A stretch of 64,000 nt of DNA, taken from positions 3,937,001-4,001,000 of the forward strand of contig NC_083386.1 in assembly GCF_031755915.1 (NCBI RefSeq), read 5' to 3'. This document shows, in pieces, positions 3,362 to 30,227 of this stretch (its first letter is position 1; each line of letters starts with the position of its first letter). This stretch comes from Ziziphus jujuba. Lineage: Eukaryota; Streptophyta; Magnoliopsida; Rosales; Rhamnaceae. Position numbers and translations under genes: made by a program. The notes under the pieces are model-generated. The model was not told the origin of the DNA. It was given only the letters and a program-made list of their open reading frames with translations, and ran no database searches.

Positions 3362-3778
3362 TGTCAGGACCCGTCCAGAATTCCTCCTCCGGAACCCTAG
3401 ACAGCCCTGATCCCAGGGAAATACCACCGAACCTTCCAACGGAAAATCCGGCAGCACCTCCCCTAAGGGATTTACTTACCACAAATTTACCTGCACTGAA
3501 AACACACTTCAAAAAAAAACATCTCCTTATCCCTCCCACAAACTACAAACTGATTCCACAAATTCCGGCACTTCTCAAAGCAACAACAGTCCAGTGCATA
3601 AATAAAACAGAAGTATTCCAATAGTATACAGAGCTTTAAGAAGTGCTAAACAACAGAGATACAACAAGGCTGAAAAGAAATAATACACTGAAATGAAAGG
3701 GTACAAAGAAACTTCTCGAAACACAACAGCAGCGGAAAACTTGGTTCGCTCCGGAAGAACGTCTACCACCACTTGCAC

Positions 3779-4905
3779 CTAAGGGAACGGAATTTAAGAG
3801 TGTGAGATGCTAATCATCTCCGTGAGTAACCCGAACTACTGAACACCTTTTAATAATAATAATAAAATAATAACAATTAAGGAGTGGAACAAATACCAAC
3901 AATTAATAATAAATAATAATAACCTTTGGAAAATAATGATTTCCCTCAAAACTCTCACCAATCGCTCCGTTTGAAATGTTCCATTTTTAAAACCTTTTCG
4001 CAAAACCCAATGTGCATACCTCCCAAAAACCAAGGGATTAAATAATTTAACAACAACAATTAAATAAATACATACCCCAAATATATAATAAAAATATAAT
4101 AAATTATAATAAATAAATTTTGAACACCTTTGGGGTTTAAACCATTATTTGCAATTACACCGACAATTACACCTGACGCACCACACCATATACCGGTGAT
4201 GCCCTCCGATACCCAGCGTCCCGAGCACCGACTGGCGGGAGGTTAAAGAGAGAAACCTGCAGTGGTCACTTCGGCGTCCCGACAGTACCGACTGCTAAAA
4301 AAAAACCATCACCCGGCCAAGGAGGGGGGCGGCTGTGCGCAACAATAACCTTGCCTGCCCACGGTCCAATGGCAACTCACGGGTGAAGTAATAACCGCAC
4401 GCTAAACCACATAATAACCGCGTGCTAAACCACGTGTCCATACACCATACACCAGAACACCAATACTGTATGAGTGCGTCTAAAAATAAACATAAACAAC
4501 CAACCGTACCGTTTTTCCAAAAACCACCGTGGGAAGTATACCAAAATTTCACAAAACACCATCCCACATATTTTATCCAATCACCCGGTACGAAACAGCG
4601 ATAACAACAAACCACAATTTCTCGAAATACGAAATGCAACCATAAAAATACCGCGGGCATAATTTATAAAATTTAACCAAATATTTTCACAAAATATTTA
4701 ACCCAATTATGCCCGAGAAATCACATTTGAAACCACGTAAAATTAATACCGAAACATACCTTGCTCATGCATAACAAATAAATTAAATTAAACCGCATTA
4801 AAACCATAATTAAACCACACCACATGAGCGTAATTAAATACTAAATTAAATACCAATTAAATTTAATTAATTGCCCAAAATAATTTTTGAAGGTGGGTCA
4901 CTCAC
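3779..4905 (-). other. Intron-like segment inside LTR1 (GT-AG, minus strand)
   Basis: On the element strand CCAG|GTGAGT (donor at 4906/4905) is followed by a 1,127-bp AT-rich stretch that ends with TTCCCTTAG| (acceptor at 3779/3778). Flanking DNA, at least on the donor side, is GC-richer. The same donor and acceptor are kept in the diverged family LTRs at 45244-46525, 47932-49106, 51841-53366 and about 2098-934. I infer a leader intron; no transcript evidence is available. Confidence 0.5.
3804..3820. promoter_or_regulatory. Conserved 17-bp palindrome next to the acceptor
   Basis: GAGATG-CTAAT-CATCTC, perfect 6-bp arms, 26-42 bp inside the proposed intron from the acceptor. It is retained in the diverged LTRs (for example near 46486 and 53327) while surrounding AT-rich DNA varies. 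Confidence 0.45.
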
Positions 4906-5071
4906 CTGGAGAGCGCAAATCAACTAAGATCCTCCTCGGGATCCACTCCACTACTCGCGCGTGCACCTAAACAACCACAGTGCACAAACCAAAAATATTA
5001 ATATTTTAGTCGGGTAATTCCCAAATGGATACCCGGGGAGCGAACACCAAGCGACATCTAAGGGTTACGAG

Positions 5072-5078
5072 TTATATA
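5072..5078 (-). promoter_or_regulatory. Candidate TATA box of LTR1
   Basis: The minus strand reads GGTATATAACTCG, about 170 nt upstream of the splice donor at 4906. Related TATATTA-type motifs occupy the same place in other family LTRs (near 45070 and 47757). Transcription would start near 5040-5047. Confidence 0.4.
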
Positions 5079-5901
5079 CCGAATCGAAGCTCGCGTGATG
5101 AGGATCACGGATTCGGTCTTACTTTCCGGTGATCGAACCCGACGGGGTCGGAATCTCGCCGGAAAGCTTTTCGAGTTTCGGCTCCGCAATTCTCCCAAAC
5201 CGTCGCGAATTGGCGGAAACGGAAGTCGGATTTGGGTTCAGGAGGTCGAACACTGCGGACTGGAGCTGGCCGGAATTTTCGGGTACTCGCCGGAACAGTA
5301 ATTTCCGGCAGGCCGCCACGTCACCGGCAACCGTCACCGGAACAGTATTTTCCGACGGTGGCCGTTTGCTGTGAAATTTTGCAGATTTGTAGATCGTGAG
5401 GAGAGCAATCCAACGGGACCGACGGTGAACAAAACGGAGGTCGGACGGCGGAGAAATCACCGTTTGAAGATTTTCGACCCCTCGCCGGAAAACGCTCCGA
5501 TCCCGGCGCGTCGGTGGTCCGATGGCCGTGATTTTTGGTGGGTAGGCCGGACTTGAGGAGAGGATCAAGGCTGTCAGGCGCGTGTGGCCGGAAAGTGGCC
5601 GGAACAGTGCCGATTCGCGGTGGCCGGCGGTGGAGGGGAAAAATCGCCGCCAAACTTCGGACGTCCGATCCGGGCGCGTCCGGCGGCCGTTTGCCGTGAA
5701 ATTTGGAGGTTTTGCCGGAAATGAGGTGGGCAAGCTTTCTGTCCGGCGCGTGTACAGTAACTCGGCCGGAACAGTGGCAAAAATCCGGTGGCCGGCGGTG
5801 GCTCTCTCTCTCTCTTTCTCTCTCCTCTCTCTCTTCTCTCTCTTTCTCTCTCTTCCCCGAGAGTTTTTCAAAATTAAAACCCTGCGTGACACTGTTCATG
5901 C

Positions 5902-5930
5902 CACGTGGACCACTCAGAAGCTGACACGTG
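5902..5930 (-). promoter_or_regulatory. Pair of G-box motifs (CACGTG) in LTR1 U3
   Basis: CACGTG occurs at 5902-5907 and 5925-5930, with flanks GCCACGTGGA and ACACGTGGCC. LTR2, LTR3, LTR4 and LTR6 keep both; LTR5 has lost the first (GCCGCGTGG). G-boxes bind bZIP and bHLH factors in plants. Confidence 0.4.
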
Positions 5931-6272
5931 GCCGTTCACTGTTCACGACCCAAAAAAAATATTAAAATAATACGGTATCCGGTAAACTTCAAACGTCCAT
6001 AACTTTTTAACCGGATGTCCGTTTTGAGCGTGCCGCTAGTCTGTGAACTCGTATCGACGAGCACTTCACAACCATGCATGAGTCAAAGCTCAATTCCCCA
6101 TAAACAAAAAGTCAACTCCAGCACCCCTTGGACAGTTTGGACCGCAACTTGTTTCGTCCATAACTTTCAAACCGTAGCTCCGTTTTCGACGTGCTACCAG
6201 TCTACGAACTCGTGGCATCGTGCACTTCGCCATGGTACCCTAGTCAACTCAAAATTCTCACCGAGTCAAAAA

Positions 6273-6322
6273 GTCAACTTTTGATCCCTTTGGTCAACGG
6301 TCAACAGTCAACCTCGGTCAAC
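6273..6322 (-). promoter_or_regulatory. W-box-like cluster in LTR1 U3
   Basis: Five GTTGAC motifs on the element strand (plus-strand GTCAAC at 6273, 6293, 6300, 6307 and 6317) lie within 50 bp, with two more at 6243 and 6111. TTGAC(C/T) is the core bound by WRKY factors. The cluster recurs in other family LTRs (about 44030-44080 and 50610-50660). Confidence 0.5.
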
Positions 6323-6361
6323 GTGCACGGATTCCGGTGCGATTTGGGACGGGGTGTTACA

Positions 6362-6374
6362 GCCTTCCCCCCTT
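6362..6374 (-). other. Polypurine tract, unit 1
   Basis: The minus strand reads AAGGGGGGAAGGC directly before the 3' LTR start TGTAACACC. This purine run is the expected plus-strand DNA primer site. Confidence 0.85.
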
Positions 6375-6453
6375 ACAAAAATTTCGTCCTCGAAATTTCC
6401 GCGCGTCACTAGAACAGATAAGGGTTCTGATCACGCACTTGCGCTTCGGGCTC

Positions 6454-7503
6454 CTACGTCGCTTCCTCGACTAAGTGGTTCCTTACCAACCAATCCATGC
6501 CCAAACTTACTTCAAGTCCGAATAGATCCAACAGGATCAGATCCGCTTCCATCACTTGATCTTCGATGCAGAAGAAACATTCCTTGATTAACTGGCTAGG
6601 CCACAAGGATTCTCCTACAGGAGTGGCTATTTCTAGCAGACATTCTAAAGGAGTAGGGGTCATACCGACCCGAACGACAGACTCTCTTGAGATGAACGAA
6701 TGTGTTGCTCCCGGGTCTATAAGTACACATGTGTCATTACCAAAAATAGTCAAAGTACCTGTGAAATCGTCGGGCGTAGTCCTGGCTCCCTGCTGCGTCA
6801 TAGCAAACACCCGGCCTTGACTTGTCTGCTGGGGTCTCCTTCCTCTACCTCGACTCGATCCTGCAGACGGCTGGACTGATCCCGAAGAAACTCCTACTGG
6901 CTGACTCCCCTGGGAACTCTGTCCTGGAAATACTCCCGTATGCTGTGTCCGTCGACCTGCTCCTAGCACACTGCCGCTACCATAAGGGCAATCCCTCCTT
7001 ATGTGGCCTGGCTGCCCACACCGAAAGCATAAACCATCCAACTGACACTGCCCAGAATGATTCCCCCTACAAAGTGGACAAATCCGCGGAGAACCAATGC
7101 GTGACTGCTGGTACGAGCTTGTATCCACACTGATCGAATGGCGAGCTGGCTGGGGCATACGATAACTATCTCTCCTCTGGAATCTGCCTCGTGGGCTTAA
7201 CCCATCATTGTCTGAGCCTGAACTATGGCTTCTTTTAGTTGCCCCCTGTTGAGGTACTCCGCTATACGAACCTTCGAAAGATCTGCGCCTTGAGGGTCTG
7301 CGTATCTCCTCCTGTCTCTCTAGCTCGAGCGCTGCATCCCTGGCGGACTGATAGGTGGGATGTACTGATCCAGAAAGGGTGTAGCCGATGCTCTCTTTCA
7401 ATCCATCTATGAACCTCATCTTCTTCGTGTGATCGTCAGGAATCAGGTGCATGCAGAATTCTGATAGTTCTCGGAATCTCCTCTCGTACTCGGTCACTGT
7501 CAT
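6454..7503 (-). pseudogene. Gag C-terminal part, zinc knuckle, partial protease and chromodomain tail, unit 1
   Basis: 349-residue frame. Residues 1-60 continue the gag capsid domain. Residues 66-135 are Ser/Arg-rich. C142-x2-C-x3-H-x3-C is an atypical knuckle and C159-x2-C-x4-H-x4-C172 is a classical CCHC zinc knuckle for nucleic-acid binding. A retropepsin-like motif (D263-P-G-A-T-H-S-F) and the flap-distal GMDWL (335-339) mark a partial aspartic protease. Immediately after, residues 341-349 resemble the end of a chromodomain, which normally lies more than 2.5 kb downstream after integrase. The frame stops at TAG (6454-6456), but 14 further open codons (6412-6453) continue the chromodomain-like tail to a second stop. 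Reverse transcriptase, RNase H and integrase are missing. It overlaps the upstream gag frame by 4 nt; the ATG is probably an internal Met, not a true start. This copy has Leu at residue 155 where the other units have Met. Confidence 0.88.
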
Positions 7504-7934
7504 GTTCCCCTGTCGCAGTTCCTCGAACTCTCTCCTTCTTGCCTCACGATAGGCAGGAGGACAAACTCAGTAGAGAAGGCAATCTTGAACTGATCCCACG
7601 TATGCCTTCTGCGGGTCTTCTCCATCTGCCACCACTTCCGGGCGTCTCCCTCTAACATGAACCCAGAAATCCTCACCATATCTTCATCGGGGCACTGCAT
7701 CCCCTCTTCCAAGATTTTCTCCATGCTGGATAGCCACTTCAAGGCTGCTGCTGGGCCTTGGCTCCCATCGAACTCCACGGCTCCTAAACGTCGAGCTTGA
7801 TCCACAGATCGATTACTAGAGCTTGAACCCCCTAAGGCTCTAGTTAGTTGAGAGACCAGATTTCTAAGGCTAGAACGACTTCCGGAACTCTCAGCAGAGC
7901 GTTCCCGAGTCCTACGTGTGTCCCGCCGACTCAT
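7500..7934 (-). pseudogene. Gag N-terminal part, unit 1
   Basis: 144-residue frame starting MSRRDTRRTRERSAES. Residues 1-50 are Arg/Ser-rich. Residues 62-120 (ALKWLSSMEKILEEG ... ARKWWQ ... WDQFKIAF) match the plant gypsy retrotransposon gag domain, which builds the particle shell. The capsid domain breaks near 7556-7562, where the reading frame shifts by one base; 19 out-of-frame codons follow, and the correct frame is resumed in the downstream 349-residue ORF. The identical break occurs in all five units. It could be a fossil mutation or, less likely, a programmed frameshift. The ATG lies about 140 bp inside the internal region after the PBS, a normal position for gag. Confidence 0.88.
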
Positions 7935-8061
7935 CGTAGTAGATTATGAGGAAACAAACAAGAGTTTAGAAACAGGGACACTTAAGCACGATTACGAAAG
8001 GAAGGAATTTACGGATGGGCTGTACAGCAATGCACAGTCCCTTAGGATTACAAGAACCTAT

Positions 8062-8073
8062 GCTCTGATACCA
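8062..8073 (-). other. Primer binding site (tRNA-iMet type), unit 1
   Basis: The minus strand reads TGGTATCAGAGC, two bases after the LTR terminus CCTGACA. This matches the 3' end complement of plant initiator tRNA-Met, the usual primer for this family. Confidence 0.88.
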
Positions 8074-8075
8074 AC

Positions 8076-11000
8076 TGTCAGGACCCGTCCAGAATTCCTC
8101 CTCCGGAACCCTAGACAGCCCTGATCCCAGGGAAATACCACCGAACCTTCCAACGGAAAATCCGGCAGCACCTCCCCTAAGGGATTTACTTACCACAAAT
8201 TTACCTGCACTGAAAACACACTTCAAAAAAAAACATCTCCTTATCCCTCCCACAAACTACAAACTGATTCCACAAATTCCGGCACTTCTCAAAGCAACAA
8301 CAGTCCAGTGCATAAATAAAACAGAAGTATTCCAATAGTATACAGAGCTTTAAGAAGTGCTAAACAACAGAGATACAACAAGGCTGAAAAGAAATAATAC
8401 ACTGAAATGAAAGGGTACAAAGAAACTTCTCGAAACACAACAGCAGCGGAAAACTTGGTTCGCTCCGGAAGAACGTCTACCACCACTTGCACCTAAGGGA
8501 ACGGAATTTAAGAGTGTGAGATGCTAATCATCTCCGTGAGTAACCCGAACTACTGAACACCTTTTAATAATAATAATAAAATAATAACAATTAAGGAGTG
8601 GAACAAATACCAACAATTAATAATAAATAATAATAACCTTTGGAAAATAATGATTTCCCTCAAAACTCTCACCAATCGCTCCGTTTGAAATGTTCCATTT
8701 TTAAAACCTTTTCGCAAAACCCAATGTGCATACCTCCCAAAAACCAAGGGATTAAATAATTTAACAACAACAATTAAATAAATACATACCCCAAATATAT
8801 AATAAAAATATAATAAATTATAATAAATAAATTTTGAACACCTTTGGGGTTTAAACCATTATTTGCAATTACACCGACAATTACACCTGACGCACCACAC
8901 CATATACCGGTGATGCCCTCCGATACCCAGCGTCCCGAGCACCGACTGGCGGGAGGTTAAAGAGAGAAACCTGCAGTGGTCACTTCGGCGTCCCGACAGT
9001 ACCGACTGCTAAAAAAAAACCATCACCCGGCCAAGGAGGGGGGCGGCTGTGCGCAACAATAACCTTGCCTGCCCACGGTCCAATGGCAACTCACGGGTGA
9101 AGTAATAACCGCACGCTAAACCACATAATAACCGCGTGCTAAACCACGTGTCCATACACCATACACCAGAACACCAATACTGTATGAGTGCGTCTAAAAA
9201 TAAACATAAACAACCAACCGTACCGTTTTTCCAAAAACCACCGTGGGAAGTATACCAAAATTTCACAAAACACCATCCCACATATTTTATCCAATCACCC
9301 GGTACGAAACAGCGATAACAACAAACCACAATTTCTCGAAATACGAAATGCAACCATAAAAATACCGCGGGCATAATTTATAAAATTTAACCAAATATTT
9401 TCACAAAATATTTAACCCAATTATGCCCGAGAAATCACATTTGAAACCACGTAAAATTAATACCGAAACATACCTTGCTCATGCATAACAAATAAATTAA
9501 ATTAAACCGCATTAAAACCATAATTAAACCACACCACATGAGCGTAATTAAATACTAAATTAAATACCAATTAAATTTAATTAATTGCCCAAAATAATTT
9601 TTGAAGGTGGGTCACTCACCTGGAGAGCGCAAATCAACTAAGATCCTCCTCGGGATCCACTCCACTACTCGCGCGTGCACCTAAACAACCACAGTGCACA
9701 AACCAAAAATATTAATATTTTAGTCGGGTAATTCCCAAATGGATACCCGGGGAGCGAACACCAAGCGACATCTAAGGGTTACGAGTTATATACCGAATCG
9801 AAGCTCGCGTGATGAGGATCACGGATTCGGTCTTACTTTCCGGTGATCGAACCCGACGGGGTCGGAATCTCGCCGGAAAGCTTTTCGAGTTTCGGCTCCG
9901 CAATTCTCCCAAACCGTCGCGAATTGGCGGAAACGGAAGTCGGATTTGGGTTCAGGAGGTCGAACACTGCGGACTGGAGCTGGCCGGAATTTTCGGGTAC
10001 TCGCCGGAACAGTAATTTCCGGCAGGCCGCCACGTCACCGGCAACCGTCACCGGAACAGTATTTTCCGACGGTGGCCGTTTGCTGTGAAATTTTGCAGAT
10101 TTGTAGATCGTGAGGAGAGCAATCCAACGGGACCGACGGTGAACAAAACGGAGGTCGGACGGCGGAGAAATCACCGTTTGAAGATTTTCGACCCCTCGCC
10201 GGAAAACGCTCCGATCCCGGCGCGTCGGTGGTCCGATGGCCGTGATTTTTGGTGGGTAGGCCGGACTTGAGGAGAGGATCAAGGCTGTCAGGCGCGTGTG
10301 GCCGGAAAGTGGCCGGAACAGTGCCGATTCGCGGTGGCCGGCGGTGGAGGGGAAAAATCGCCGCCAAACTTCGGACGTCCGATCCGGGCGCGTCCGGCGG
10401 CCGTTTGCCGTGAAATTTGGAGGTTTTGCCGGAAATGAGGTGGGCAAGCTTTCTGTCCGGCGCGTGTACAGTAACTCGGCCGGAACAGTGGCAAAAATCC
10501 GGTGGCCGGCGGTGGCTCTCTCTCTCTCTTTCTCTCTCCTCTCTCTCTTTCTCTCTCTTCTCTCTCTTTCTCTCTCTTCCCCGAGAGTTTTTCAAAATTA
10601 AAACCCTGCGTGACACTGTTCATGCCACGTGGACCACTCAGAAGCTGACACGTGGCCGTTCACTGTTCACGACCCAAAAAAAATATTAAAATAATACGGT
10701 ATCCGGTAAACTTCAAACGTCCATAACTTTTTAACCGGATGTCCGTTTTGAGCGTGCCGCTAGTCTGTGAACTCGTATCGACGAGCACTTCACAACCATG
10801 CATGAGTCAAAGCTCAATTCCCCATAAACAAAAAGTCAACTCCAGCACCCCTTGGACAGTTTGGACCGCAACTTGTTTCGTCCATAACTTTCAAACCGTA
10901 GCTCCGTTTTCGACGTGCTACCAGTCTACGAACTCGTGGCATCGTGCACTTCGCCACGGTACCCTAGTCAACTCAAAATTCTCACCGAGTCAAAAAGTCA

Positions 11001-11085
11001 ACTTTTGATCCCTTTGGTCAACGGTCAACAGTCAACCTCGGTCAACGTGCACGGATTCCGGTGCGATTTGGGACGGGGTGTTACA
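8076..11085 (-). repeat. LTR2 of the array (3,010 bp)
   Basis: Long AT allele and long CT allele. Apparently identical in structure to LTR3. Shared between the unit to its left and the unit to its right. Confidence 0.95.
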
Positions 11086-11098
11086 GCCTTCCCCCCTT
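11086..11098 (-). other. Polypurine tract, unit 2
   Basis: Same AAGGGGGGAAGGC run next to LTR2. Confidence 0.85.
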
Positions 11099-11177
11099 AC
11101 AAAAATTTCGTCCTCGAAATTTCCGCGCGTCACTAGAACAGATAAGGGTTCTGATCACGCACTTGCGCTTCGGGCTC

Positions 11178-12227
11178 CTACGTCGCTTCCTCGACTAAGT
11201 GGTTCCTTACCAACCAATCCATGCCCAAACTTACTTCAAGTCCGAATAGATCCAACAGGATCAGATCCGCTTCCATCACTTGATCTTCGATGCAGAAGAA
11301 ACATTCCTTGATTAACTGGCTAGGCCACAAGGATTCTCCTACAGGAGTGGCTATTTCTAGCAGACATTCTAAAGGAGTAGGGGTCATACCGACCCGAACG
11401 ACAGACTCTCTTGAGATGAACGAATGTGTTGCTCCCGGGTCTATAAGTACACATGTGTCATTACCAAAAATAGTCAAAGTACCTGTGAAATCGTCGGGCG
11501 TAGTCCTGGCTCCCTGCTGCGTCATAGCAAACACCCGGCCTTGACTTGTCTGCTGGGGTCTCCTTCCTCTACCTCGACTCGATCCTGCAGACGGCTGGAC
11601 TGATCCCGAAGAAACTCCTACTGGCTGACTCCCCTGGGAACTCTGTCCTGGAAATACTCCCGTATGCTGTGTCCGTCGACCTGCTCCTAGCACACTGCCG
11701 CTACCATAAGGGCAATCCCTCCTTATGTGGCCTGGCTGCCCACACCGAAAGCATAAACCATCCATCTGACACTGCCCAGAATGATTCCCCCTACAAAGTG
11801 GACAAATCCGCGGAGAACCAATGCGTGACTGCTGGTACGAGCTTGTATCCACACTGATCGAATGGCGAGCTGGCTGGGGCATACGATAACTATCTCTCCT
11901 CTGGAATCTGCCTCGTGGGCTTAACCCATCATTGTCTGAGCCTGAACTATGGCTTCTTTTAGTTGCCCCCTGTTGAGGTACTCCGCTATACGAACCTTCG
12001 AAAGATCTGCGCCTTGAGGGTCTGCGTATCTCCTCCTGTCTCTCTAGCTCGAGCGCTGCATCCCTGGCGGACTGATAGGTGGGATGTACTGATCCAGAAA
12101 GGGTGTAGCCGATGCTCTCTTTCAATCCATCTATGAACCTCATCTTCTTCGTGTGATCGTCAGGAATCAGGTGCATGCAGAATTCTGATAGTTCTCGGAA
12201 TCTCCTCTCGTACTCGGTCACTGTCAT
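11178..12227 (-). pseudogene. Gag C-terminal, zinc knuckle, partial protease, unit 2
   Basis: Same 349-residue frame as unit 1, with the CCHC knuckle, DPG protease motif, protease-to-chromodomain join and terminal TAG. The only difference I see from unit 1 is Met at residue 155 in place of Leu, a state shared with units 3-5. Confidence 0.88.
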
Positions 12228-12658
12228 GTTCCCCTGTCGCAGTTCCTCGAACTCTCTCCTTCTTGCCTCACGATAGGCAGGAGGACAAACTCAGTAGAGA
12301 AGGCAATCTTGAACTGATCCCACGTATGCCTTCTGCGGGTCTTCTCCATCTGCCACCACTTCCGGGCGTCTCCCTCTAACATGAACCCAGAAATCCTCAC
12401 CATATCTTCATCGGGGCACTGCATCCCCTCTTCCAAGATTTTCTCCATGCTGGATAGCCACTTCAAGGCTGCTGCTGGGCCTTGGCTCCCATCGAACTCC
12501 ACGGCTCCTAAACGTCGAGCTTGATCCACAGATCGATTACTAGAGCTTGAACCCCCTAAGGCTCTAGTTAGTTGAGAGACCAGATTTCTAAGGCTAGAAC
12601 GACTTCCGGAACTCTCAGCAGAGCGTTCCCGAGTCCTACGTGTGTCCCGCCGACTCAT
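12224..12658 (-). pseudogene. Gag N-terminal part, unit 2
   Basis: Identical at protein level to unit 1, including the frameshift within the capsid domain (near 12280-12286). Confidence 0.88.
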
Positions 12659-12785
12659 CGTAGTAGATTATGAGGAAACAAACAAGAGTTTAGAAACAGG
12701 GACACTTAAGCACGATTACGAAAGGAAGGAATTTACGGATGGGCTGTACAGCAATGCACAGTCCCTTAGGATTACAAGAACCTAT

Positions 12786-12797
12786 GCTCTGATACCA
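12786..12797 (-). other. Primer binding site, unit 2
   Basis: TGGTATCAGAGC on the minus strand, adjoining LTR3. Confidence 0.88.
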
Positions 12798-12799
12798 AC

Positions 12800-15700
12800 T
12801 GTCAGGACCCGTCCAGAATTCCTCCTCCGGAACCCTAGACAGCCCTGATCCCAGGGAAATACCACCGAACCTTCCAACGGAAAATCCGGCAGCACCTCCC
12901 CTAAGGGATTTACTTACCACAAATTTACCTGCACTGAAAACACACTTCAAAAAAAAACATCTCCTTATCCCTCCCACAAACTACAAACTGATTCCACAAA
13001 TTCCGGCACTTCTCAAAGCAACAACAGTCCAGTGCATAAATAAAACAGAAGTATTCCAATAGTATACAGAGCTTTAAGAAGTGCTAAACAACAGAGATAC
13101 AACAAGGCTGAAAAGAAATAATACACTGAAATGAAAGGGTACAAAGAAACTTCTCGAAACACAACAGCAGCGGAAAACTTGGTTCGCTCCGGAAGAACGT
13201 CTACCACCACTTGCACCTAAGGGAACGGAATTTAAGAGTGTGAGATGCTAATCATCTCCGTGAGTAACCCGAACTACTGAACACCTTTTAATAATAATAA
13301 TAAAATAATAACAATTAAGGAGTGGAACAAATACCAACAATTAATAATAAATAATAATAACCTTTGGAAAATAATGATTTCCCTCAAAACTCTCACCAAT
13401 CGCTCCGTTTGAAATGTTCCATTTTTAAAACCTTTTCGCAAAACCCAATGTGCATACCTCCCAAAAACCAAGGGATTAAATAATTTAACAACAACAATTA
13501 AATAAATACATACCCCAAATATATAATAAAAATATAATAAATTATAATAAATAAATTTTGAACACCTTTGGGGTTTAAACCATTATTTGCAATTACACCG
13601 ACAATTACACCTGACGCACCACACCATATACCGGTGATGCCCTCCGATACCCAGCGTCCCGAGCACCGACTGGCGGGAGGTTAAAGAGAGAAACCTGCAG
13701 TGGTCACTTCGGCGTCCCGACAGTACCGACTGCTAAAAAAAAACCATCACCCGGCCAAGGAGGGGGGCGGCTGTGCGCAACAATAACCTTGCCTGCCCAC
13801 GGTCCAATGGCAACTCACGGGTGAAGTAATAACCGCACGCTAAACCACATAATAACCGCGTGCTAAACCACGTGTCCATACACCATACACCAGAACACCA
13901 ATACTGTATGAGTGCGTCTAAAAATAAACATAAACAACCAACCGTACCGTTTTTCCAAAAACCACCGTGGGAAGTATACCAAAATTTCACAAAACACCAT
14001 CCCACATATTTTATCCAATCACCCGGTACGAAACAGCGATAACAACAAACCACAATTTCTCGAAATACGAAATGCAACCATAAAAATACCGCGGGCATAA
14101 TTTATAAAATTTAACCAAATATTTTCACAAAATATTTAACCCAATTATGCCCGAGAAATCACATTTGAAACCACGTAAAATTAATACCGAAACATACCTT
14201 GCTCATGCATAACAAATAAATTAAATTAAACCGCATTAAAACCATAATTAAACCACACCACATGAGCGTAATTAAATACTAAATTAAATACCAATTAAAT
14301 TTAATTAATTGCCCAAAATAATTTTTGAAGGTGGGTCACTCACCTGGAGAGCGCAAATCAACTAAGATCCTCCTCGGGATCCACTCCACTACTCGCGCGT
14401 GCACCTAAACAACCACAGTGCACAAACCAAAAATATTAATATTTTAGTCGGGTAATTCCCAAATGGATACCCGGGGAGCGAACACCAAGCGACATCTAAG
14501 GGTTACGAGTTATATACCGAATCGAAGCTCGCGTGATGAGGATCACGGATTCGGTCTTACTTTCCGGTGATCGAACCCGACGGGGTCGGAATCTCGCCGG
14601 AAAGCTTTTCGAGTTTCGGCTCCGCAATTCTCCCAAACCGTCGCGAATTGGCGGAAACGGAAGTCGGATTTGGGTTCAGGAGGTCGAACACTGCGGACTG
14701 GAGCTGGCCGGAATTTTCGGGTACTCGCCGGAACAGTAATTTCCGGCAGGCCGCCACGTCACCGGCAACCGTCACCGGAACAGTATTTTCCGACGGTGGC
14801 CGTTTGCTGTGAAATTTTGCAGATTTGTAGATCGTGAGGAGAGCAATCCAACGGGACCGACGGTGAACAAAACGGAGGTCGGACGGCGGAGAAATCACCG
14901 TTTGAAGATTTTCGACCCCTCGCCGGAAAACGCTCCGATCCCGGCGCGTCGGTGGTCCGATGGCCGTGATTTTTGGTGGGTAGGCCGGACTTGAGGAGAG
15001 GATCAAGGCTGTCAGGCGCGTGTGGCCGGAAAGTGGCCGGAACAGTGCCGATTCGCGGTGGCCGGCGGTGGAGGGGAAAAATCGCCGCCAAACTTCGGAC
15101 GTCCGATCCGGGCGCGTCCGGCGGCCGTTTGCCGTGAAATTTGGAGGTTTTGCCGGAAATGAGGTGGGCAAGCTTTCTGTCCGGCGCGTGTACAGTAACT
15201 CGGCCGGAACAGTGGCAAAAATCCGGTGGCCGGCGGTGGCTCTCTCTCTCTCTTTCTCTCTCCTCTCTCTCTTTCTCTCTCTTCTCTCTCTTTCTCTCTC
15301 TTCCCCGAGAGTTTTTCAAAATTAAAACCCTGCGTGACACTGTTCATGCCACGTGGACCACTCAGAAGCTGACACGTGGCCGTTCACTGTTCACGACCCA
15401 AAAAAAATATTAAAATAATACGGTATCCGGTAAACTTCAAACGTCCATAACTTTTTAACCGGATGTCCGTTTTGAGCGTGCCGCTAGTCTGTGAACTCGT
15501 ATCGACGAGCACTTCACAACCATGCATGAGTCAAAGCTCAATTCCCCATAAACAAAAAGTCAACTCCAGCACCCCTTGGACAGTTTGGACCGCAACTTGT
15601 TTCGTCCATAACTTTCAAACCGTAGCTCCGTTTTCGACGTGCTACCAGTCTACGAACTCGTGGCATCGTGCACTTCGCCACGGTACCCTAGTCAACTCAA

Positions 15701-15809
15701 AATTCTCACCGAGTCAAAAAGTCAACTTTTGATCCCTTTGGTCAACGGTCAACAGTCAACCTCGGTCAACGTGCACGGATTCCGGTGCGATTTGGGACGG
15801 GGTGTTACA
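12800..15809 (-). repeat. LTR3 of the array (3,010 bp)
   Basis: Long AT and long CT alleles. I could not find a difference from LTR2 by eye, so the LTR2-LTR3 interval is probably the most recent duplication. Confidence 0.95.
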
Positions 15810-17521: not shown

Positions 17522-17523
17522 AC

Positions 17524-20523: not shown

Positions 20524-20536
20524 GCCTTCCCCCCTT
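20524..20536 (-). other. Polypurine tract, unit 4
   Basis: Same purine run next to LTR4. Confidence 0.85.
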
Positions 20537-20615
20537 ACAAAAATTTCGTCCTCGAAATTTCCGCGCGTCACTAGAACAGATAAGGGTTCTGATCACGCAC
20601 TTGCGCTTCGGGCTC

Positions 20616-21665
20616 CTACGTCGCTTCCTCGACTAAGTGGTTCCTTACCAACCAATCCATGCCCAAACTTACTTCAAGTCCGAATAGATCCAACAGGATC
20701 AGATCCGCTTCCATCACTTGATCTTCGATGCAGAAGAAACATTCCTTGATTAACTGGCTAGGCCACAAGGATTCTCCTACAGGAGTGGCTATTTCTAGCA
20801 GACATTCTAAAGGAGTAGGGGTCATACCGACCCGAACGACAGACTCTCTTGAGATGAACGAATGTGTTGCTCCCGGGTCTATAAGTACACATGTGTCATT
20901 ACCAAAAATAGTCAAAGTACCTGTGAAATCGTCGGGCGTAGTCCTGGCTCCCTGCTGCGTCATAGCAAACACCCGGCCTTGACTTGTCTGCTGGGGTCTC
21001 CTTCCTCTACCTCGACTCGATCCTGCAGACGGCTGGACTGATCCCGAAGAAACTCCTACTGGCTGACTCCCCTGGGAACTCTGTCCTGGAAATACTCCCG
21101 TATGCTGTGTCCGTCGACCTGCTCCTAGCACACTGCCGCTACCATAAGGGCAATCCCTCCTTATGTGGCCTGGCTGCCCACACCGAAAGCATAAACCATC
21201 CATCTGACACTGCCCAGAATGATTCCCCCTACAAAGTGGACAAATCCGCGGAGAACCAATGCGTGACTGCTGGTACGAGCTTGTATCCACACTGATCGAA
21301 TGGCGAGCTGGCTGGGGCATACGATAACTATCTCTCCTCTGGAATCTGCCTCGTGGGCTTAACCCATCATTGTCTGAGCCTGAACTATGGCTTCTTTTAG
21401 TTGCCCCCTGTTGAGGTACTCCGCTATACGAACCTTCGAAAGATCTGCGCCTTGAGGGTCTGCGTATCTCCTCCTGTCTCTCTAGCTCGAGCGCTGCATC
21501 CCTGGCGGACTGATAGGTGGGATGTACTGATCCAGAAAGGGTGTAGCCGATGCTCTCTTTCAATCCATCTATGAACCTCATCTTCTTCGTGTGATCGTCA
21601 GGAATCAGGTGCATGCAGAATTCTGATAGTTCTCGGAATCTCCTCTCGTACTCGGTCACTGTCAT
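20616..21665 (-). pseudogene. Gag C-terminal, zinc knuckle, partial protease, unit 4
   Basis: Protein identical to units 2 and 3. The neighbouring LTR4 carries several private SNPs but this internal region does not, so mutation or conversion acted unevenly along the unit. Confidence 0.88.
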
Positions 21666-22096
21666 GTTCCCCTGTCGCAGTTCCTCGAACTCTCTCCTTC
21701 TTGCCTCACGATAGGCAGGAGGACAAACTCAGTAGAGAAGGCAATCTTGAACTGATCCCACGTATGCCTTCTGCGGGTCTTCTCCATCTGCCACCACTTC
21801 CGGGCGTCTCCCTCTAACATGAACCCAGAAATCCTCACCATATCTTCATCGGGGCACTGCATCCCCTCTTCCAAGATTTTCTCCATGCTGGATAGCCACT
21901 TCAAGGCTGCTGCTGGGCCTTGGCTCCCATCGAACTCCACGGCTCCTAAACGTCGAGCTTGATCCACAGATCGATTACTAGAGCTTGAACCCCCTAAGGC
22001 TCTAGTTAGTTGAGAGACCAGATTTCTAAGGCTAGAACGACTTCCGGAACTCTCAGCAGAGCGTTCCCGAGTCCTACGTGTGTCCCGCCGACTCAT
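21662..22096 (-). pseudogene. Gag N-terminal part, unit 4
   Basis: Protein identical to the other units, with the same frame break near 21718-21724. Confidence 0.88.
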
Positions 22097-22223
22097 CGTA
22101 GTAGATTATGAGGAAACAAACAAGAGTTTAGAAACAGGGACACTTAAGCACGATTACGAAAGGAAGGAATTTACGGATGGGCTGTACAGCAATGCACAGT
22201 CCCTTAGGATTACAAGAACCTAT

Positions 22224-22235
22224 GCTCTGATACCA
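22224..22235 (-). other. Primer binding site, unit 4
   Basis: TGGTATCAGAGC on the minus strand, adjoining LTR5. Confidence 0.88.
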
Positions 22236-22237
22236 AC

Positions 22238-25200
22238 TGTCAGGACCCGTCCAGAATTCCTCCTCCGGAACCCTAGACAGCCCTGATCCCAGGGAAATAC
22301 CACCGAACCTTCCAACGGAAAATCCGGCAGCACCTCCCCTAAGGGATTTACTTACCACAAATTTACCTGCACTGAAAACACACTTCAAAAAAAAACATCT
22401 CCTTATCCCTCCCACAAACTACAAACTGATTCCACAAATTCCGGCACTTCTCAAAGCAACAACAGTCCAGTGCATAAATAAAACAGAAGTATTCCAATAG
22501 TATACAGAGCTTTAAGAAGTGCTAAACAACAGAGATACAACAAGGCTGAAAAGAAATAATACACTGAAATGAAAGGGTACAAAGAAACTTCTCGAAACAC
22601 AACAGCAGCGGAAAACTTGGTTCGCTCCGGAAGAACGTCTACCACCACTTGCACCTAAGGGAACGGAATTTAAGAGTGTGAGATGCTAATCATCTCCGTG
22701 AGTAACCCGAACTACTGAACACCTTTTAATAATAATAATAAAATAATAACAATTAAGGAGTGGAACAAATACCAACAATTAATAATAAATAATAATAACC
22801 TTTGGAAAATAATGATTTCCCTCAAAACTCTCACCAATCGCTCCGTTTGAAATGTTCCATTTTTAAAACCTTTTCGCAAAACCCAATGTGCATACCTCCC
22901 AAAAACCAAGGGATTAAATAATTTAACAACAACAATTAAATAAATACATACCCCAAATATATAATAAAAATATAATAAATTATAATAAATAAATTTTGAA
23001 CACCTTTGGGGTTTAAACCATTATTTGCAATTACACCGACAATTACACCTGACGCACCACACCATATACCGGTGATGCCCTCCGATACCCAGCGTCCCGA
23101 GCACCGACTGGCGGGAGGTTAAAGAGAGAAACCTGCAGTGGTCACTTCGGCGTCCCGACAGTACCGACTGCTAAAAAAAAACCATCACCCGGCCAAGGAG
23201 GGGGGCGGCTGTGCGCAACAATAACCTTGCCTGCCCACGGTCCAATGGCAACTCACGGGTGAAGTAATAACCGCACGCTAAACCACATAATAACCGCGTG
23301 CTAAACCACGTGTCCATACACCATACACCAGAACACCAATACTGTATGAGTGCGTCTAAAAATAAACATAAACAACCAACCGTACCGTTTTTCCAAAAAC
23401 CACCGTGGGAAGTATACCAAAATTTCACAAAACACCATCCCACATATTTTATCCAATCACCCGGTACGAAACAGCGATAACAACAAACCACAATTTCTCG
23501 AAATACGAAATGCAACCATAAAAATACCGCGGGCATAATTTATAAAATTTAACCAAATATTTTCACAAAATATTTAACCCAATTATGCCCGAGAAATCAC
23601 ATTTGAAACCACGTAAAATTAATACCGAAACATACCTTGCTCATGCATAACAAATAAATTAAATTAAACCGCATTAAAACCATAATTAAACCACACCACA
23701 TGAGCGTAATTAAATACTAAATTAAATACCAATTAAATTTAATTAATTGCCCAAAATAATTTTTGAAGGTGGGTCACTCACCTGGAGAGCGCAAATCAAC
23801 TAAGATCCTCCTCGGGATCCACTCCACTACTCGCGCGTGCACCTAAACAACCACAGTGCACAAACCAAAAATATTAATATTTTAGTCGGGTAATTCCCAA
23901 ATGGATACCCGGGGAGCGAACACCAAGCGACATCTAAGGGTTACGAGTTATATACCGAATCGAAGCTCGCGTGATGAGGATCACGGATTCGGTCTTACTT
24001 TCCGGTGATCGAACCCGACGGGGTCGGAATCTCGCCGGAAAGCTTTTCGAGTTTCGGCTCCGCAATTCTCCCAAACCGTCGCGAATTGGCGGAAACGGAA
24101 GTCGGATTTGGGTTCAGGAGGTCGAACACTGCGGACTGGAGCTGGCCGGAATTTTCGGGTACTCGCCGGAACAGTAATTTCCGGCGGGCCGCCACGTCAC
24201 CGGCAACCGTCACCGGAACAGTATTTTCCGACGGTGGCCGTTTGCTGTGAAATTTTGCAGATTTGTAGATCGTGAGGAGAGCAATCCAACGGGACCGACG
24301 GTGAGCAAAACGGAGGTCGGACGGTGGAGAAATCACCGTTTGAAGATTTTCGACCCCTCGTCGGAAAACGCTCCGATCCCGGCGCGTCGGTGGTCCGGAA
24401 AATGGCCGGAACAGTGCCGATTCGCGGTGGCCGGCGGTGGAGGGGAAAAATCGCCGCCAAACTTCGGACCTCCGATCCGGGCGCGTCCAGCGGCCGTTCG
24501 CCGTGAAATTTGGAGGTTTTGCCGGAAATGAGGTGGGCAAGCTTTCTGTCCGGCGCGTGTACAGTAACTCGGCCGGAACAGTGGAAAACTCCGGTGGCCG
24601 GCGGTGGCTCTCTCTCTCTCTTTCTCTCTCTTCCCCGAGAGTTTTTCAAAATTAAAACCCTGCGTGACACTGTTCATGCCGCGTGGACCAATCAGAAGTT
24701 GACACGTGGCATTTCACTGTTCAAGGCTGTCAGGCGCGTGTGGCCGGACTTGAGGAGAGGATCAAGGCTGTCAGGCGCGTGTGGTCGGAAAATGGCCGGA
24801 ACAGTGCCGATTCGCGGTGGCCGGCGGTGGAGGGGAAAAATCGCCACCAAACTTCGGACCTCCGATCCGGGCGCGTCCAGCGGCCGTTCGCCGTGAAATT
24901 TGGAGGTTTTGCCGGAAATGAGGTGGGCAAGCTTTCTGTCCGGCGCGTGTACAGTAACTCGGCCGGAACAGTGGAAAACTCCGGTGGCCGGCGGTGGCTC
25001 TCTCTCTCTCTTTCTCTCTCTTCCCCGAGAGTTTTTCAAAATTAAAACCCTGCGTGACACTGTTCATGCCGCGTGGACCAATCAGAAGTTGACACGTGGC
25101 ATTTCACTGTTCACTGACCCAAAAAAACATTAAAATAATACGGTATCCGGTAAACTTCAAACGTCCATAACTTTTTAACCGGATGTCCGTTTTGAGCGTG

Positions 25201-25523
25201 CCGCTAGTCTGTGAATTCGTATCGACGAGCACTTCACAACCATGCATGAGTCAAAGCTCAATTCCCCATAAACAAAAAGTCAACTCCGGCACCCCTTGGA
25301 CAGTTTGGACCGCAACTTGTTTTGTCCATAACTTCCAAACCGTAGCTCCGTTTTCGACGTGCTACCAGTCTACGAACTCGTGGCATCGTGCACTTCGCCA
25401 CGGTATCCTAGTCATCTCGCAATTCCCACCGAGTCAAAAAGTCAACTTTTGACCCCCTTCGGTCAACGGTCAACCTCGGTCAACGTGCACGGATTCCGGT
25501 GCGATTTGGGACGGGGTGTTACA
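22238..25523 (-). repeat. LTR5 of the array (3,286 bp, divergent half)
   Basis: The first 1.9 kb matches the other LTRs. From about 24185 to 25480 it carries a dense block of private substitutions and indels and a tandem duplication of about 328 bp (24396-24723 and 24786-25113). This half looks derived from a different family member. Confidence 0.95.
24396..25113. repeat. Tandem duplication of about 328 bp inside LTR5
   Basis: 24396-24723 is repeated at 24786-25113 (period 390 bp) with about one difference, joined by a 62-bp spacer made of repeated short LTR pieces (GGCTGTCAGGCGCGTGTGG occurs twice). It includes the GC-rich segment, the CT repeat and the CACTGTTCA motif. Only LTR5 has it. 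Confidence 0.85.
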
Positions 25524-25536
25524 GCCTTCCCCCCTT
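25524..25536 (-). other. Polypurine tract, unit 5
   Basis: Same purine run next to LTR5. Confidence 0.85.
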
Positions 25537-25615
25537 ACAAAAATTTCGTCCTCGAAATTTCCGCGCGTCACTAGAACAGATAAGGGTTCTGATCACGCAC
25601 TTGCGCTTCGGGCTC

Positions 25616-26665
25616 CTACGTCGCTTCCTCGACTAAGTGGTTCCTTACCAACCAATCCATGCCCAAACTTACTTCAAGTCCGAATAGATCCAACAGGATC
25701 AGATCCGCTTCCATCACTTGATCTTCGATGCAGAAGAAACATTCCTTGATTAACTGGCTAGGCCACAAGGATTCTCCTACAGGAGTGGCTATTTCTAGCA
25801 GACATTCTAAAGGAGTAGGGGTCATACCGACCCGAACGACAGACTCTCTTGAGATGAACGAATGTGTTGCTCCCGGGTCTATAAGTACACATGTGTCATT
25901 ACCAAAAATAGTCAAAGTACCTGTGAAATCGTCGGGCGTAGTCCTGGCTCCCTGCTGCGTCATAGCAAACACCCGGCCTTGACTTGTCTGCTGGGGTCTC
26001 CTTCCTCTACCTCGACTCGATCCTGCAGACGGCTGGACTGATCCCGAAGAAACTCCTACTGGCTGACTCCCCTGGGAACTCTGTCCTGGAAATACTCCCG
26101 TATGCTGTGTCCGTCGACCTGCTCCTAGCACACTGCCGCTACCATAAGGGCAATCCCTCCTTATGTGGCCTGGCTGCCCACACCGAAAGCATAAACCATC
26201 CATCTGACACTGCCCAGAATGATTCCCCCTACAAAGTGGACAAATCCGCGGAGAACCAATGCGTGACTGCTGGTACGAGCTTGTATCCACACTGATCGAA
26301 TGGCGAGCTGGCTGGGGCATACGATAACTATCTCTCCTCTGGAATCTGCCTCGTGGGCTTAACCCATCATTGTCTGAGCCTGAACTATGGCTTCTTTTAG
26401 TTGCCCCCTGTTGAGGTACTCCGCTATACGAACCTTCGAAAGATCTGCGCCTTGAGGGTCTGCGTATCTCCTCCTGTCTCTCTAGCTCGAGCGCTGCATC
26501 CCTGGCGGACTGATAGGTGGGATGTACTGATCCAGAAAGGGTGTAGCCGATGCTCTCTTTCAATCCATCTATGAACCTCATCTTCTTCGTGTGATCGTCA
26601 GGAATCAGGTGCATGCAGAATTCTGATAGTTCTCGGAATCTCCTCTCGTACTCGGTCACTGTCAT
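25616..26665 (-). pseudogene. Gag C-terminal, zinc knuckle, partial protease, unit 5
   Basis: Protein identical to units 2-4. It lies directly beside the strongly divergent half of LTR5, yet the internal region is unchanged; the divergence stops close to the LTR border. Confidence 0.88.
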
Positions 26666-27096
26666 GTTCCCCTGTCGCAGTTCCTCGAACTCTCTCCTTC
26701 TTGCCTCACGATAGGCAGGAGGACAAACTCAGTAGAGAAGGCAATCTTGAACTGATCCCACGTATGCCTTCTGCGGGTCTTCTCCATCTGCCACCACTTC
26801 CGGGCGTCTCCCTCTAACATGAACCCAGAAATCCTCACCATATCTTCATCGGGGCACTGCATCCCCTCTTCCAAGATTTTCTCCATGCTGGATAGCCACT
26901 TCAAGGCTGCTGCTGGGCCTTGGCTCCCATCGAACTCCACGGCTCCTAAACGTCGAGCTTGATCCACAGATCGATTACTAGAGCTTGAACCCCCTAAGGC
27001 TCTAGTTAGTTGAGAGACCAGATTTCTAAGGCTAGAACGACTTCCGGAACTCTCAGCAGAGCGTTCCCGAGTCCTACGTGTGTCCCGCCGACTCAT
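26662..27096 (-). pseudogene. Gag N-terminal part, unit 5
   Basis: Protein identical to the other units, with the same frame break near 26718-26724. This is the unit next to LTR6, the element's original 5' LTR. Confidence 0.88.
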
Positions 27097-27223
27097 CGTA
27101 GTAGATTATGAGGAAACAAACAAGAGTTTAGAAACAGGGACACTTAAGCACGATTACGAAAGGAAGGAATTTACGGATGGGCTGTACAGCAATGCACAGT
27201 CCCTTAGGATTACAAGAACCTAT

Positions 27224-27235
27224 GCTCTGATACCA
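27224..27235 (-). other. Primer binding site, unit 5
   Basis: TGGTATCAGAGC on the minus strand, adjoining LTR6. Confidence 0.88.
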
Positions 27236-27237
27236 AC

Positions 27238-30227
27238 TGTCAGGACCCGTCCAGAATTCCTCCTCCGGAACCCTAGACAGCCCTGATCCCAGGGAAATAC
27301 CACCGAACCTTCCAACGGAAAATCCGGCAGCACCTCCCCTAAGGGATTTACTTACCACAAATTTACCTGCACTGAAAACACACTTCAAAAAAAAACATCT
27401 CCTTATCCCTCCCACAAACTACAAACTGATTCCACAAATTCCGGCACTTCTCAAAGCAACAACAGTCCAGTGCATAAATAAAACAGAAGTATTCCAATAG
27501 TATACAGAGCTTTAAGAAGTGCTAAACAACAGAGATACAACAAGGCTGAAAAGAAATAATACACTGAAATGAAAGGGTACAAAGAAACTTCTCGAAACAC
27601 AACAGCAGCGGAAAACTTGGTTCGCTCCGGAAGAACGTCTACCACCACTTGCACCTAAGGGAACGGAATTTAAGAGTGTGAGATGCTAATCATCTCCGTG
27701 AGTAACCCGAACTACTGAACACCTTTTAATAATAATAATAAAATAATAACAATTAAGGAGTGGAACAAATACCAACAATTAATAATAAATAATAATAACC
27801 TTTGGAAAATAATGATTTCCCTCAAAACTCTCACCAATCGCTCCGTTTGAAATGTTCCATTTTTAAAACCTTTTCGCAAAACCCAATGTGCATACCTCCC
27901 AAAAACCAAGGGATTAAATAATTTAACAACAACAATTAAATAAATACATACCCCAAATATATAATAAAAATATAATAAATAAATTTTGAACACCTTTGGG
28001 GTTTAAACCATTATTTGCAATTACACCGACAATTACACCTGACGCACCACACCATATACCGGTGATGCCCTCCGATACCCAGCGTCCCGAGCACCGACTG
28101 GCGGGAGGTTAAAGAGAGAAACCTGCAGTGGTCACTTCGGCGTCCCGACAGTACCGACTGCTAAAAAAAAACCATCACCCGGCCAAGGAGGGGGGCGGCT
28201 GTGCGCAACAATAACCTTGCCTGCCCACGGTCCAATGGCAACTCACGGGTGAAGTAATAACCGCACGCTAAACCACATAATAACCGCGTGCTAAACCACG
28301 TGTCCATACACCATACACCAGAACACCAATACTGTATGAGTGCGTCTAAAAATAAACATAAACAACCAACCGTACCGTTTTTCCAAAAACCACCGTGGGA
28401 AGTATACCAAAATTTCACAAAACACCATCCCACATATTTTATCCAATCACCCGGTACGAAACAGCGATAACAACAAACCACAATTTCTCGAAATACGAAA
28501 TGCAACCATAAAAATACCGCGGGCATAATTTATAAAATTTAACCAAATATTTTCACAAAATATTTAACCCAATTATGCCCGAGAAATCACATTTGAAACC
28601 ACGTAAAATTAATACCGAAACATACCTTGCTCATGCATAACAAATAAATTAAATTAAACCGCATTAAAACCATAATTAAACCACACCACATGAGCGTAAT
28701 TAAATACTAAATTAAATACCAATTAAATTTAATTAATTGCCCAAAATAATTTTTGAAGGTGGGTCACTCACCTGGAGAGCGCAAATCAACTAAGATCCTC
28801 CTCGGGATCCACTCCACTACTCGCGCGTGCACCTAAACAACCACAGTGCACAAACCAAAAATATTAATATTTTAGTCGGGTAATTCCCAAATGGATACCC
28901 GGGGAGCGAACACCAAGCGACATCTAAGGGTTACGAGTTATATACCGAATCGAAGCTCGCGTGATGAGGATCACGGATTCGGTCTTACTTTCCGGTGATC
29001 GAACCCGACGGGGTCGGAATCTCGCCGGAAAGCTTTTCGAGTTTCGGCTCCGCAATTCTCCCAAACCGTCGCGAATTGGCGGAAACGGAAGTCGGATTTG
29101 GGTTCAGGAGGTCGAACACTGCGGACTGGAGCTGGCCGGAATTTTCGGGTACTCGCCGGAACAGTAATTTCCGGCAGGCCGCCACGTCACCGGCAACCGT
29201 CACCGGAACAGTATTTTCCGACGGTGGCCGTTTGCTGTGAAATTTTGTAGATTTGTAGATCGTGAGGAGAGCAATCCAACGGGACCGACGGTGAACAAAA
29301 CGGAGGTCGGACGGCGGAGAAATCACCGTTTGAAGATTTTCGACCCCTCGCCGGAAAACGCTCCGATCCCGGCGCGTCGGTGGTCCGATGGCCGTGATTT
29401 TTGGTGGGTAGGCCGGACTTGAGGAGAGGATCAAGGCTGTCAGGCGCGTGTGGCCGGAAAGTGGCCGGAACAGTGCCGATTCGCGGTGGCCGGCGGTGGA
29501 GGGGAAAAATCGCCGCCAAACTTCGGACGTCCGATCCGGGCGCGTCCGGCGGCCGTTTGCCGTGAAATTTGGAGGTTTTGCCGGAAATGAGGTGGGCAAG
29601 CTTTCTGTCCGGCGCGTGTACAGTAACTCGGCCGGAACAGTGGCAAAAATCCGGTGGCCGGCGGTGGCTCTCTCTCTCTCTTTCTCTCTCCTCTCTCTCT
29701 TCTCTCTCTTTCTCTCTCTTCCCCGAGAGTTTTTCAAAATTAAAACCCTGCGTGACACTGTTCATGCCACGTGGACCACTCAGAAGCTGACACGTGGCCG
29801 TTCACTGTTCACGACCCAAAAAAAATATTAAAATAATACGGTATCCGGTAAACTTCAAACGTCCATAACTTTTTAACCGGATGTCCGTTTTGAGCGTGCC
29901 GCTAGTCTGTGAACTCGTATCGACGAGCACTTCACAACCATGCATGAGTCAAAGCTCAATTCCCCATAAACAAAAAGTCAACTCCAGCACCCCTTGGACA
30001 GTTTGGACCGCAACTTGTTTCGTCCATAACTTTCAAACCGTAGCTCCGTTTTCGACGTGCTACCAGTCTACGAACTCGTGGCATCGTGCACTTCGCCACG
30101 GTACCCTAGTCAACTCAAAATTCTCACCGAGTCAAAAAGTCAACTTTTGATCCCTTTGGTCAACGGTCAACAGTCAACCTCGGTCAACGTGCACGGATTC
30201 CGGTGCGATTTGGGACGGGGTGTTACA
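27238..30227 (-). repeat. LTR6 of the array (2,990 bp)
   Basis: Rightmost LTR, the element's 5' LTR on the minus strand. Short AT allele, like LTR4, and short CT allele, like LTR1. It ends at TGTTACA followed by the target duplication TCATA. Confidence 0.95.

Follow-up and report, generated by a model that had tools for sequence, protein, structure and literature searches.

Positions 3362–30227 of the window (the whole 64-kb stretch of DNA analyzed) hold a tandem LTR-retrotransposon array, which probably derives from one insertion of a defective element and probably expanded on the spot as the 3-kb LTRs of that element underwent unequal exchange. Self-comparison and border reading give six near-identical LTRs (2990–3286 bp) that alternate with five interiors of 1714 bp each, with an LTR first and last, as the initial annotation had described. 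The array is oriented on the minus strand, with the following parts:

3357..3361, no strand: TCATA, left target-site duplication of the array
3362..6361, minus strand: LTR1 (3′ LTR when the array is read in element orientation), 3000 bp
6362..8075, minus strand: internal region 1, bounded by a purine tract on the left and a primer site on the right, with two-frame gag, CCHC and aspartic protease
8076..11085, minus strand: LTR2, 3010 bp, identical to LTR3
11086..12799, minus strand: internal region 2, identical to regions 3, 4, and 5
12800..15809, minus strand: LTR3, 3010 bp
15810..17523, minus strand: internal region 3
17524..20523, minus strand: LTR4, 3000 bp, with six single-base variants, all on the U3 side
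20524..22237, minus strand: internal region 4
22238..25523, minus strand: LTR5, a mosaic with a diverged U3-side patch, 3286 bp
25524..27237, minus strand: internal region 5
27238..30227, minus strand: LTR6 (5′ LTR when the array is read in element orientation), 2990 bp
30228..30232, no strand: TCATA, right target-site duplication of the array

In the border reading, all six LTRs start with TGTCAGGACC and end with GTGTTACA. TCATA stands at both outermost borders and at none of the 10 inner LTR borders; among LTR borders, therefore, only the outer ones carry it, as previously claimed. The same string also occurs inside every interior, twice in each, away from the borders. In element orientation, interior 1 starts with GTTGGTATCAGAGCA (the primer site) and ends with AAGGGGGGAAGGC, and the same end letters are found in all five interiors. 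The TG...CA LTRs, the primer site after the 5′ LTR and the purine tract before the 3′ LTR agree with the ends of an LTR retrotransposon of the Ty3/gypsy type. In self-BLAST, 16.3-kb stretches of the array align at 99.7%, so that chance similarity between the repeats is not an issue. The period is 4.7 kb for units 1–4 and, because of LTR5, 5.0 kb for unit 5. The 4.7-kb unit proposed initially thus applies to units 1–4 but not to unit 5, and the LTRs are of unequal lengths with LTR5 a mosaic.

The array is embedded in a solo LTR that is older, belongs to a related family and has its own target-site duplication (AATAT):

503..507, no strand: AATAT, left target-site duplication of the host solo LTR
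508..3361, minus strand: left part of the host solo LTR (including TCATA at 3357–3361), with BLAST pieces 72–77% identical to the array LTRs
30233..30451, minus strand: right part of the host solo LTR, continuous with 508–3361 on alignment to the LTR at 50571–53779
30452..30456, no strand: AATAT, right target-site duplication of the host solo LTR

The empty site can be read from two related LTRs, which align straight across the insertion point of the array; the joined flanks match the related LTR at 50571–53779 over 418 columns at 79.7%, with 21 gap positions. One insertion event at this site is well supported, because there is one target duplication with clean ends, an alignable empty site, a common gag break and a single variable base in the interiors. 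Nested independent insertions are rejected, since target duplications are absent from all 10 inner LTR borders and one gag break is present in all five interiors. A paper on maize Wukong favors recombination between two adjacent elements; at the present locus, recombination of two nearby independent elements is unlikely, both flanks belonging to one host LTR with matching AATAT.

The coding content of the interiors is the following:

6454..7503, minus strand: open frame with the end of gag, the CCHC knuckle and the aspartic protease (region 1)
11178..12227, 15902..16951, 20616..21665, and 25616..26665, minus strand: repeats of the frame with the gag end, CCHC and protease
7503..7943, minus strand: N-terminal gag piece in a different frame, with the same break in all five units

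The domain search finds RVP_2 (E 2e-26) and zf-CCHC (E 6e-07) in the frames of all five interiors, while the gag matches are weak and below cut-off (Ty3_capsid at 16.5 bits vs. a cut-off of 29.1 bits). Neither reverse transcriptase nor integrase is found in the array units, and the protease is the only pol part seen. The element, likely a plant one, is defective and likely of the Ty3 type; the type is to be read with the fact that the protease–RT–RNaseH–integrase order, which defines the type, is unreadable where the protease alone is found and its frame stops 92 bp short of the end of the interior. Among the best 120 of 140 matches in the protein search, the top one is an ENA contig (96% over 71% of the query), and the nearest named protein, from Ziziphus jujuba, matches at 70% over 75% of the query. 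There are no tRNA genes and no Rfam families in the 64-kb window. The term “gag-only,” used for the element at first, is inexact, as a zinc knuckle and an aspartic protease occur in every interior and gag runs over two frames. TR-GAGs are non-autonomous elements with gag as the only coding part. The present element is alike in being a non-autonomous LTR element that keeps gag pieces without reverse transcriptase and integrase; it differs in the retention of the protease and in a gag split over two frames.

The five interiors vary at one base in 1714 (regions 2–5 are identical and region 1 differs). This single difference and the identical gag break point to one parent copy as the likely source of all five. 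Over 4724 bp, no difference separates units 2 and 3, in line with a late duplication. The same identity could come from a false expansion in the assembly, and a wrong join of two haplotypes is compatible with a single sequence. However, with private variants in LTR1, LTR4, LTR5, LTR6, and interior 1, an exact false repeat is possible for units 2 and 3 only, and the flanks are clean; a misassembly of several copies of a single element, or of two haplotypes, is highly improbable.

The base changes in the LTRs are all on the U3 side, with none in the first 1699 columns of LTRs 1, 4, 5, and 6 compared to LTR2 (LTR3 being equal to LTR2). LTR1 and LTR6 are separated by two base differences and one 10-bp indel. 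As a counterpoint to in-place exchange, this near-identity would fit just as well if every unit dated back to the insertion. A second counterpoint is given by the indels at LTR columns 734 (10 bp, pattern + + + - + -) and 2786, both in slippage-prone repeats, which fit no single simple exchange history. LTR4 has six of the nine base changes outside the LTR5 patch, a share reached in 0.08% of simulations under a uniform clock and a star tree; plain exchange with mutation is thus not the whole story. With LTR4 left out of this test, the three remaining changes cannot separate the rival models.

On its U3 side, LTR5 contains a patch that is 4.3% diverged, with a tandem duplication of ∼343 bp. Among 40 sites at which LTR5 differs from LTRs 1, 2, and 6, the related LTRs found in the window agree with LTR5 at 17 and with the array at 16; at 6 sites they are tied or different, and at 1 they are absent. 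The underlying alignment is noisy (the relatives are 63–76% identical to LTRs 2 and 5 in it). At the six variants of LTR4, the related LTRs agree with the array at five and with LTR4 at one. Given the 17-to-16 split against 5-to-1 for LTR4, the patch alleles look imported rather than mutated in place, and simple decay is unlikely. Among self-BLAST pieces of at least 150 bp, there is no donor for the patch in the window; the best match of the LTR5 U3 side outside the array is 81%, vs. about 80% for the sister LTRs. The U3 is the promoter part of the LTR. It may be, and we consider this unlikely, that the U3 side alone is swapped among family members within the locus with the LTR bodies and interiors frozen, the array being then a store of alternative promoters for one identical interior.

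In-place growth would have started with a first insertion made by the helper proteins of an autonomous relative. Mispairing of LTRs on sister or homologous chromatids would then have raised the number of units, by one or several per event, and during later repair LTR5, perhaps also LTR4, could have received a U3 patch copied from a different member of the family. In reverse, the same exchange would reduce the locus to a single element or to a solo LTR, and the host solo LTR may be a product of such shrinkage. According to the Cassandra paper, inter-chromosomal exchange should leave the units different, and such mechanisms explain only part of the tandems.

The initial annotation offered amplification of one insertion in place or integration of a concatemer; the single insertion is well supported, and in-place LTR–LTR exchange is in our view the better option, not a proven one. 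A ready-made concatemer, inserted by integrase in one step and likely stemming either from a transcript of several units (by read-through, or by transcription of a one-LTR circle) or from cDNAs that had recombined, would give one target duplication from the start and near-identical units. It has precedent in the multi-unit Cassandra transcripts and the one-LTR-circle route discussed in print, and template switches among packaged RNAs could yield base changes confined to U3. On the other hand, it requires a cDNA of ∼27 kb or the recombination of several cDNAs, and if the source were a single circle, the diverged LTR5 patch would call for an additional event. The Cassandra paper also argues that packaging is easier for small elements, whereas the unit here is about 4.7 kb. 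We consider the concatemer possible but rather unlikely. New cDNAs might also have recombined homologously into the LTRs of the resident element without integrase, one unit each time, by the yeast route cited in PMC11899658. Units would be added without new target duplications, and the mosaic LTR5 (perhaps LTR4) fits recombination at LTRs; but separate cDNAs should bring differing interiors, and with four of five identical and the fifth one base off, the source would have to be the same each time, which makes this route very unlikely.

Tandem LTR arrays are already known in plants, and the locus is a clear, well-preserved new example, not a new phenomenon. Arrays of many units and polymorphism in unit number have been published. 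PMC11899658 describes tandem LTR-retrotransposons in rice (full-size elements), Arabidopsis, almond, and cotton. Of the 28 clear cases in rice, 10 have perfect 5-nt target duplications; gypsy elements are enriched in rice and Arabidopsis, and not significantly so in cotton and almond. As in those tandems, highly similar LTRs and interiors alternate here, with an LTR at both ends and retrotransposon protein domains in the interiors; a single target-site duplication surrounds the array, with none at the inner LTR borders. Each of the two rice loci that are treated at length contains three LTRs and two interiors, in contrast to six and five here, in an element without pol beyond the protease and with 3-kb LTRs.

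The same architecture is seen in TRIM and Cassandra arrays: a five-LTR TRIM array with target duplication (PMC4717578), cases with six and seven LTRs and target duplications in most multi-LTR elements (PMC4528315), and Cassandra arrays in which PCR shows as many as 13 LTRs (PMC7215508, where a text search for target site duplications finds nothing). All these are small elements (under 1500 bp by the criterion of PMC4717578) and without protein genes, whereas the present unit of ∼4.7 kb codes for gag and protease pieces and falls outside the TRIMs. To say that the element behaves like a satellite, as initially proposed, is overstated for five units between single target duplications, satellites being long homogeneous arrays of many units. 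A 2025 rice study left open whether tandem LTR arrays are built at the site itself or ahead of insertion. A young five-unit array with patchy LTR variants contains more information on order than three-LTR cases, and its alleles, compared across individuals, could tell which of the two routes was taken. Repeat annotation could miss or miscount loci of such a pol-less element with 3-kb LTRs.

The array (3362–30227, 26,866 bp) is a strict alternation of six LTRs and five interiors, as read from a self-BLAST of the window and from the borders. LTR1 to LTR6, numbered from left to right, measure 3000, 3010, 3010, 3000, 3286 and 2990 bp; all five interiors are 1714 bp long, and on the plus strand every array LTR runs from TGTCAGGACC to GTGTTACA. 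TCATA, the target-site duplication, directly flanks the first and last LTRs and occurs at 0 of the 10 inner LTR borders. The initial annotation had described six LTRs and five interiors of identical length over 26.9 kb, with TCATA confined to the outer borders, and both descriptions are borne out.

The solo LTR that surrounds the array (508–3361 and 30233–30451) is older, belongs to a related family and has its own AATAT duplication (503–507 and 30452–30456). When the flanks are joined with one TCATA kept (419 bp, junction after position 200), positions 1–417 align to the related LTR at 50571–53779 (79.7%, with 21 gap positions). Positions 1–341 align to the LTR at 43992–46947 (86.3%), which also yields a short second piece (228–317, 75%). 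Such alignment across the joined flanks is that expected of an empty site, and a single insertion event is well supported.

The element lies on the minus strand. In element orientation, interior 1 opens with GTTGGTATCAGAGCA, taken here to be an initiator-methionine tRNA-type primer site, and closes with the purine tract AAGGGGGGAAGGC. A single base varies among the five interiors, the only one at which interiors 2–5 differ from interior 1. The main open frame of the unit (349 aa) contains in all five copies an aspartic protease, RVP_2 (E 2e-26), and a CCHC knuckle (E 6e-07); it stops 92 bp short of the interior end, and its start matches no more than the end of Retrotrans_gag, below cut-off at E 0.0048. 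The N-terminal gag piece (147 aa, 23.9 bits vs. a cut-off of 24.1) is in a separate frame, and this frame break is common to all five units. Eight other open stretches of at least 60 aa in interior 1 (maximum 109 aa) give no Pfam match at E 0.1. Since the searches turned up neither reverse transcriptase nor integrase in the array interiors, and pieces of gag and protease are present, the element is, as judged from its sequence, non-autonomous and not strictly gag-only; the earlier label "gag-only" is inexact. A relative, P0004, carries RVP_2 and a partial reverse transcriptase match (RVT_1, 28.4 bits vs. a cut-off of 29.6). Among the best 120 of 140 matches, the closest named proteins are from plants, Ziziphus jujuba first, which makes a flowering plant the likely host, perhaps one close to the order of Ziziphus.

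Units 2 and 3 (each an interior plus an LTR) are identical over 4724 bp, LTR2 and LTR3 included. Over LTR columns 1–1699, LTRs 1, 4, 5, and 6 show no base difference from LTR2, and the sole difference is a slippage-type 10-bp indel. Beyond these columns, a single private base marks each of LTR1 and LTR6; LTR4 shows variants at six bases, one of them also in LTR5; and LTR5 differs from LTR2 at 41 of 962 aligned columns (4.3%), with large indels in addition. Because an LTR read in element orientation has U3 at its 5′ end, the variable part is the U3 side, placed by orientation rather than by a mapped U3/R border. The diverged U3 patch of LTR5 contains a 343-bp internal duplication: at 24381–25113, about 340 bp of the patch are tandemly doubled (98.8% identity), and self-BLAST gives nothing comparable in any of the array's five remaining LTRs.

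Private variants in LTR1, interior 1, LTR4, LTR5, and LTR6 anchor the unit order, so that an exact false repeat could involve no units but 2 and 3. A joining of two haplotypes in the assembly is conceivable from one sequence.

At 40 sites separating LTR5 from LTRs 1, 2, and 6, four related LTRs of the window back LTR5 at 17 and the array at 16 (six tied or different, one absent), in a vote drawn from one noisy alignment with relatives 63%–76% identical to LTRs 2 and 5. In-place mutation should leave the relatives mainly on the side of the array, and for the six LTR4 variants they do back the array at five. Because of the split of 17 vs. 16, unlike that in LTR4, a sister lineage is the most likely source from which the LTR5 patch was copied. 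Of nine base changes outside this patch, LTR4 holds six, which a uniform star clock yields in 0.08% of 200,000 simulations (0.5% when the site shared with LTR5 is dropped, leaving five of eight). The placement of all six at or past column 1700 has a chance of 0.7%. A second, closer import into LTR4 is possible.

LTR1 and LTR6 differ by two bases and one indel. Plant substitution rates are 7e-9 to 1.3e-8 per site per year; at these rates, which may not be those of this host, the divergence corresponds to about 26,000–48,000 years.

The initial annotation proposed one insertion followed by in-place exchange, or a concatemer. The single insertion stands, and unequal exchange in place is the probable origin of the five units: it would act between identical 3-kb LTRs, known steps would suffice, and it explains the identical neighbors, units 2 and 3. 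A concatemer formed before insertion accounts for the same array anatomy and is an unlikelier, tentative alternative. In the available excerpts, a 2025 study of plant arrays (PMC11899658) weighs both routes and chooses neither, the Wukong paper (PMC4528315) prefers recombination between adjacent elements, and the Cassandra paper (PMC7215508) lets exchange account for only part of its tandems.

The array is a further example of published plant LTR arrays and not the first of its type, since rice, TRIM, maize and Cassandra arrays are known. For one rice genome, the same excerpts report 66 LTR-related candidate tandems, of which 28 were clear on manual inspection and 10 of these had a perfect 5-nt target duplication; the pangenome total is 266 candidates, and Arabidopsis, almond and cotton have tandems as well (PMC11899658). 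They also describe two maize elements, one of six LTRs and one of seven (PMC4528315), and, by PCR, as many as 13 LTRs with 12 interiors (PMC7215508). In the part of PMC4717578 at hand, 35 of 43 plant genomes contain TRIM arrays, and one such array has five LTRs and a target duplication. With five units of a larger element and readable patches, the present array can help decide how arrays form.

Elsewhere in the window, a related element in the orientation opposite to the array (43992–49523) has a full LTR (43992–46947), immediately followed by the primer-site-like GTTGGTATCA and, after some 50 bp, by a second LTR whose start is absent (47000–49523); most of its interior seems deleted. The LTR at 50571–53779, also opposite in orientation, is older, of related families, and possibly flanked by a decayed duplication (ATTAT/AGTAT). 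Self-BLAST aligns 38787–43001 with 57534–62721 in five blocks, 76%–89% alike and in the same order, likely an older segmental duplication; in three frames these regions give no Pfam match above cut-off and one weak match (Cys_rich_CPCC, E 0.023). A further Pfam match lies elsewhere:

36659–36970, minus strand, pectinesterase (PF01095) match in an open stretch, E 2.6e-17

The stretch probably represents an exon from a gene or pseudogene of the host. Beside the array, 30774–31087 is an inverted repeat with a 75% match to its own reverse complement (self-BLAST); it may be a foldback or MITE-like element that has decayed.
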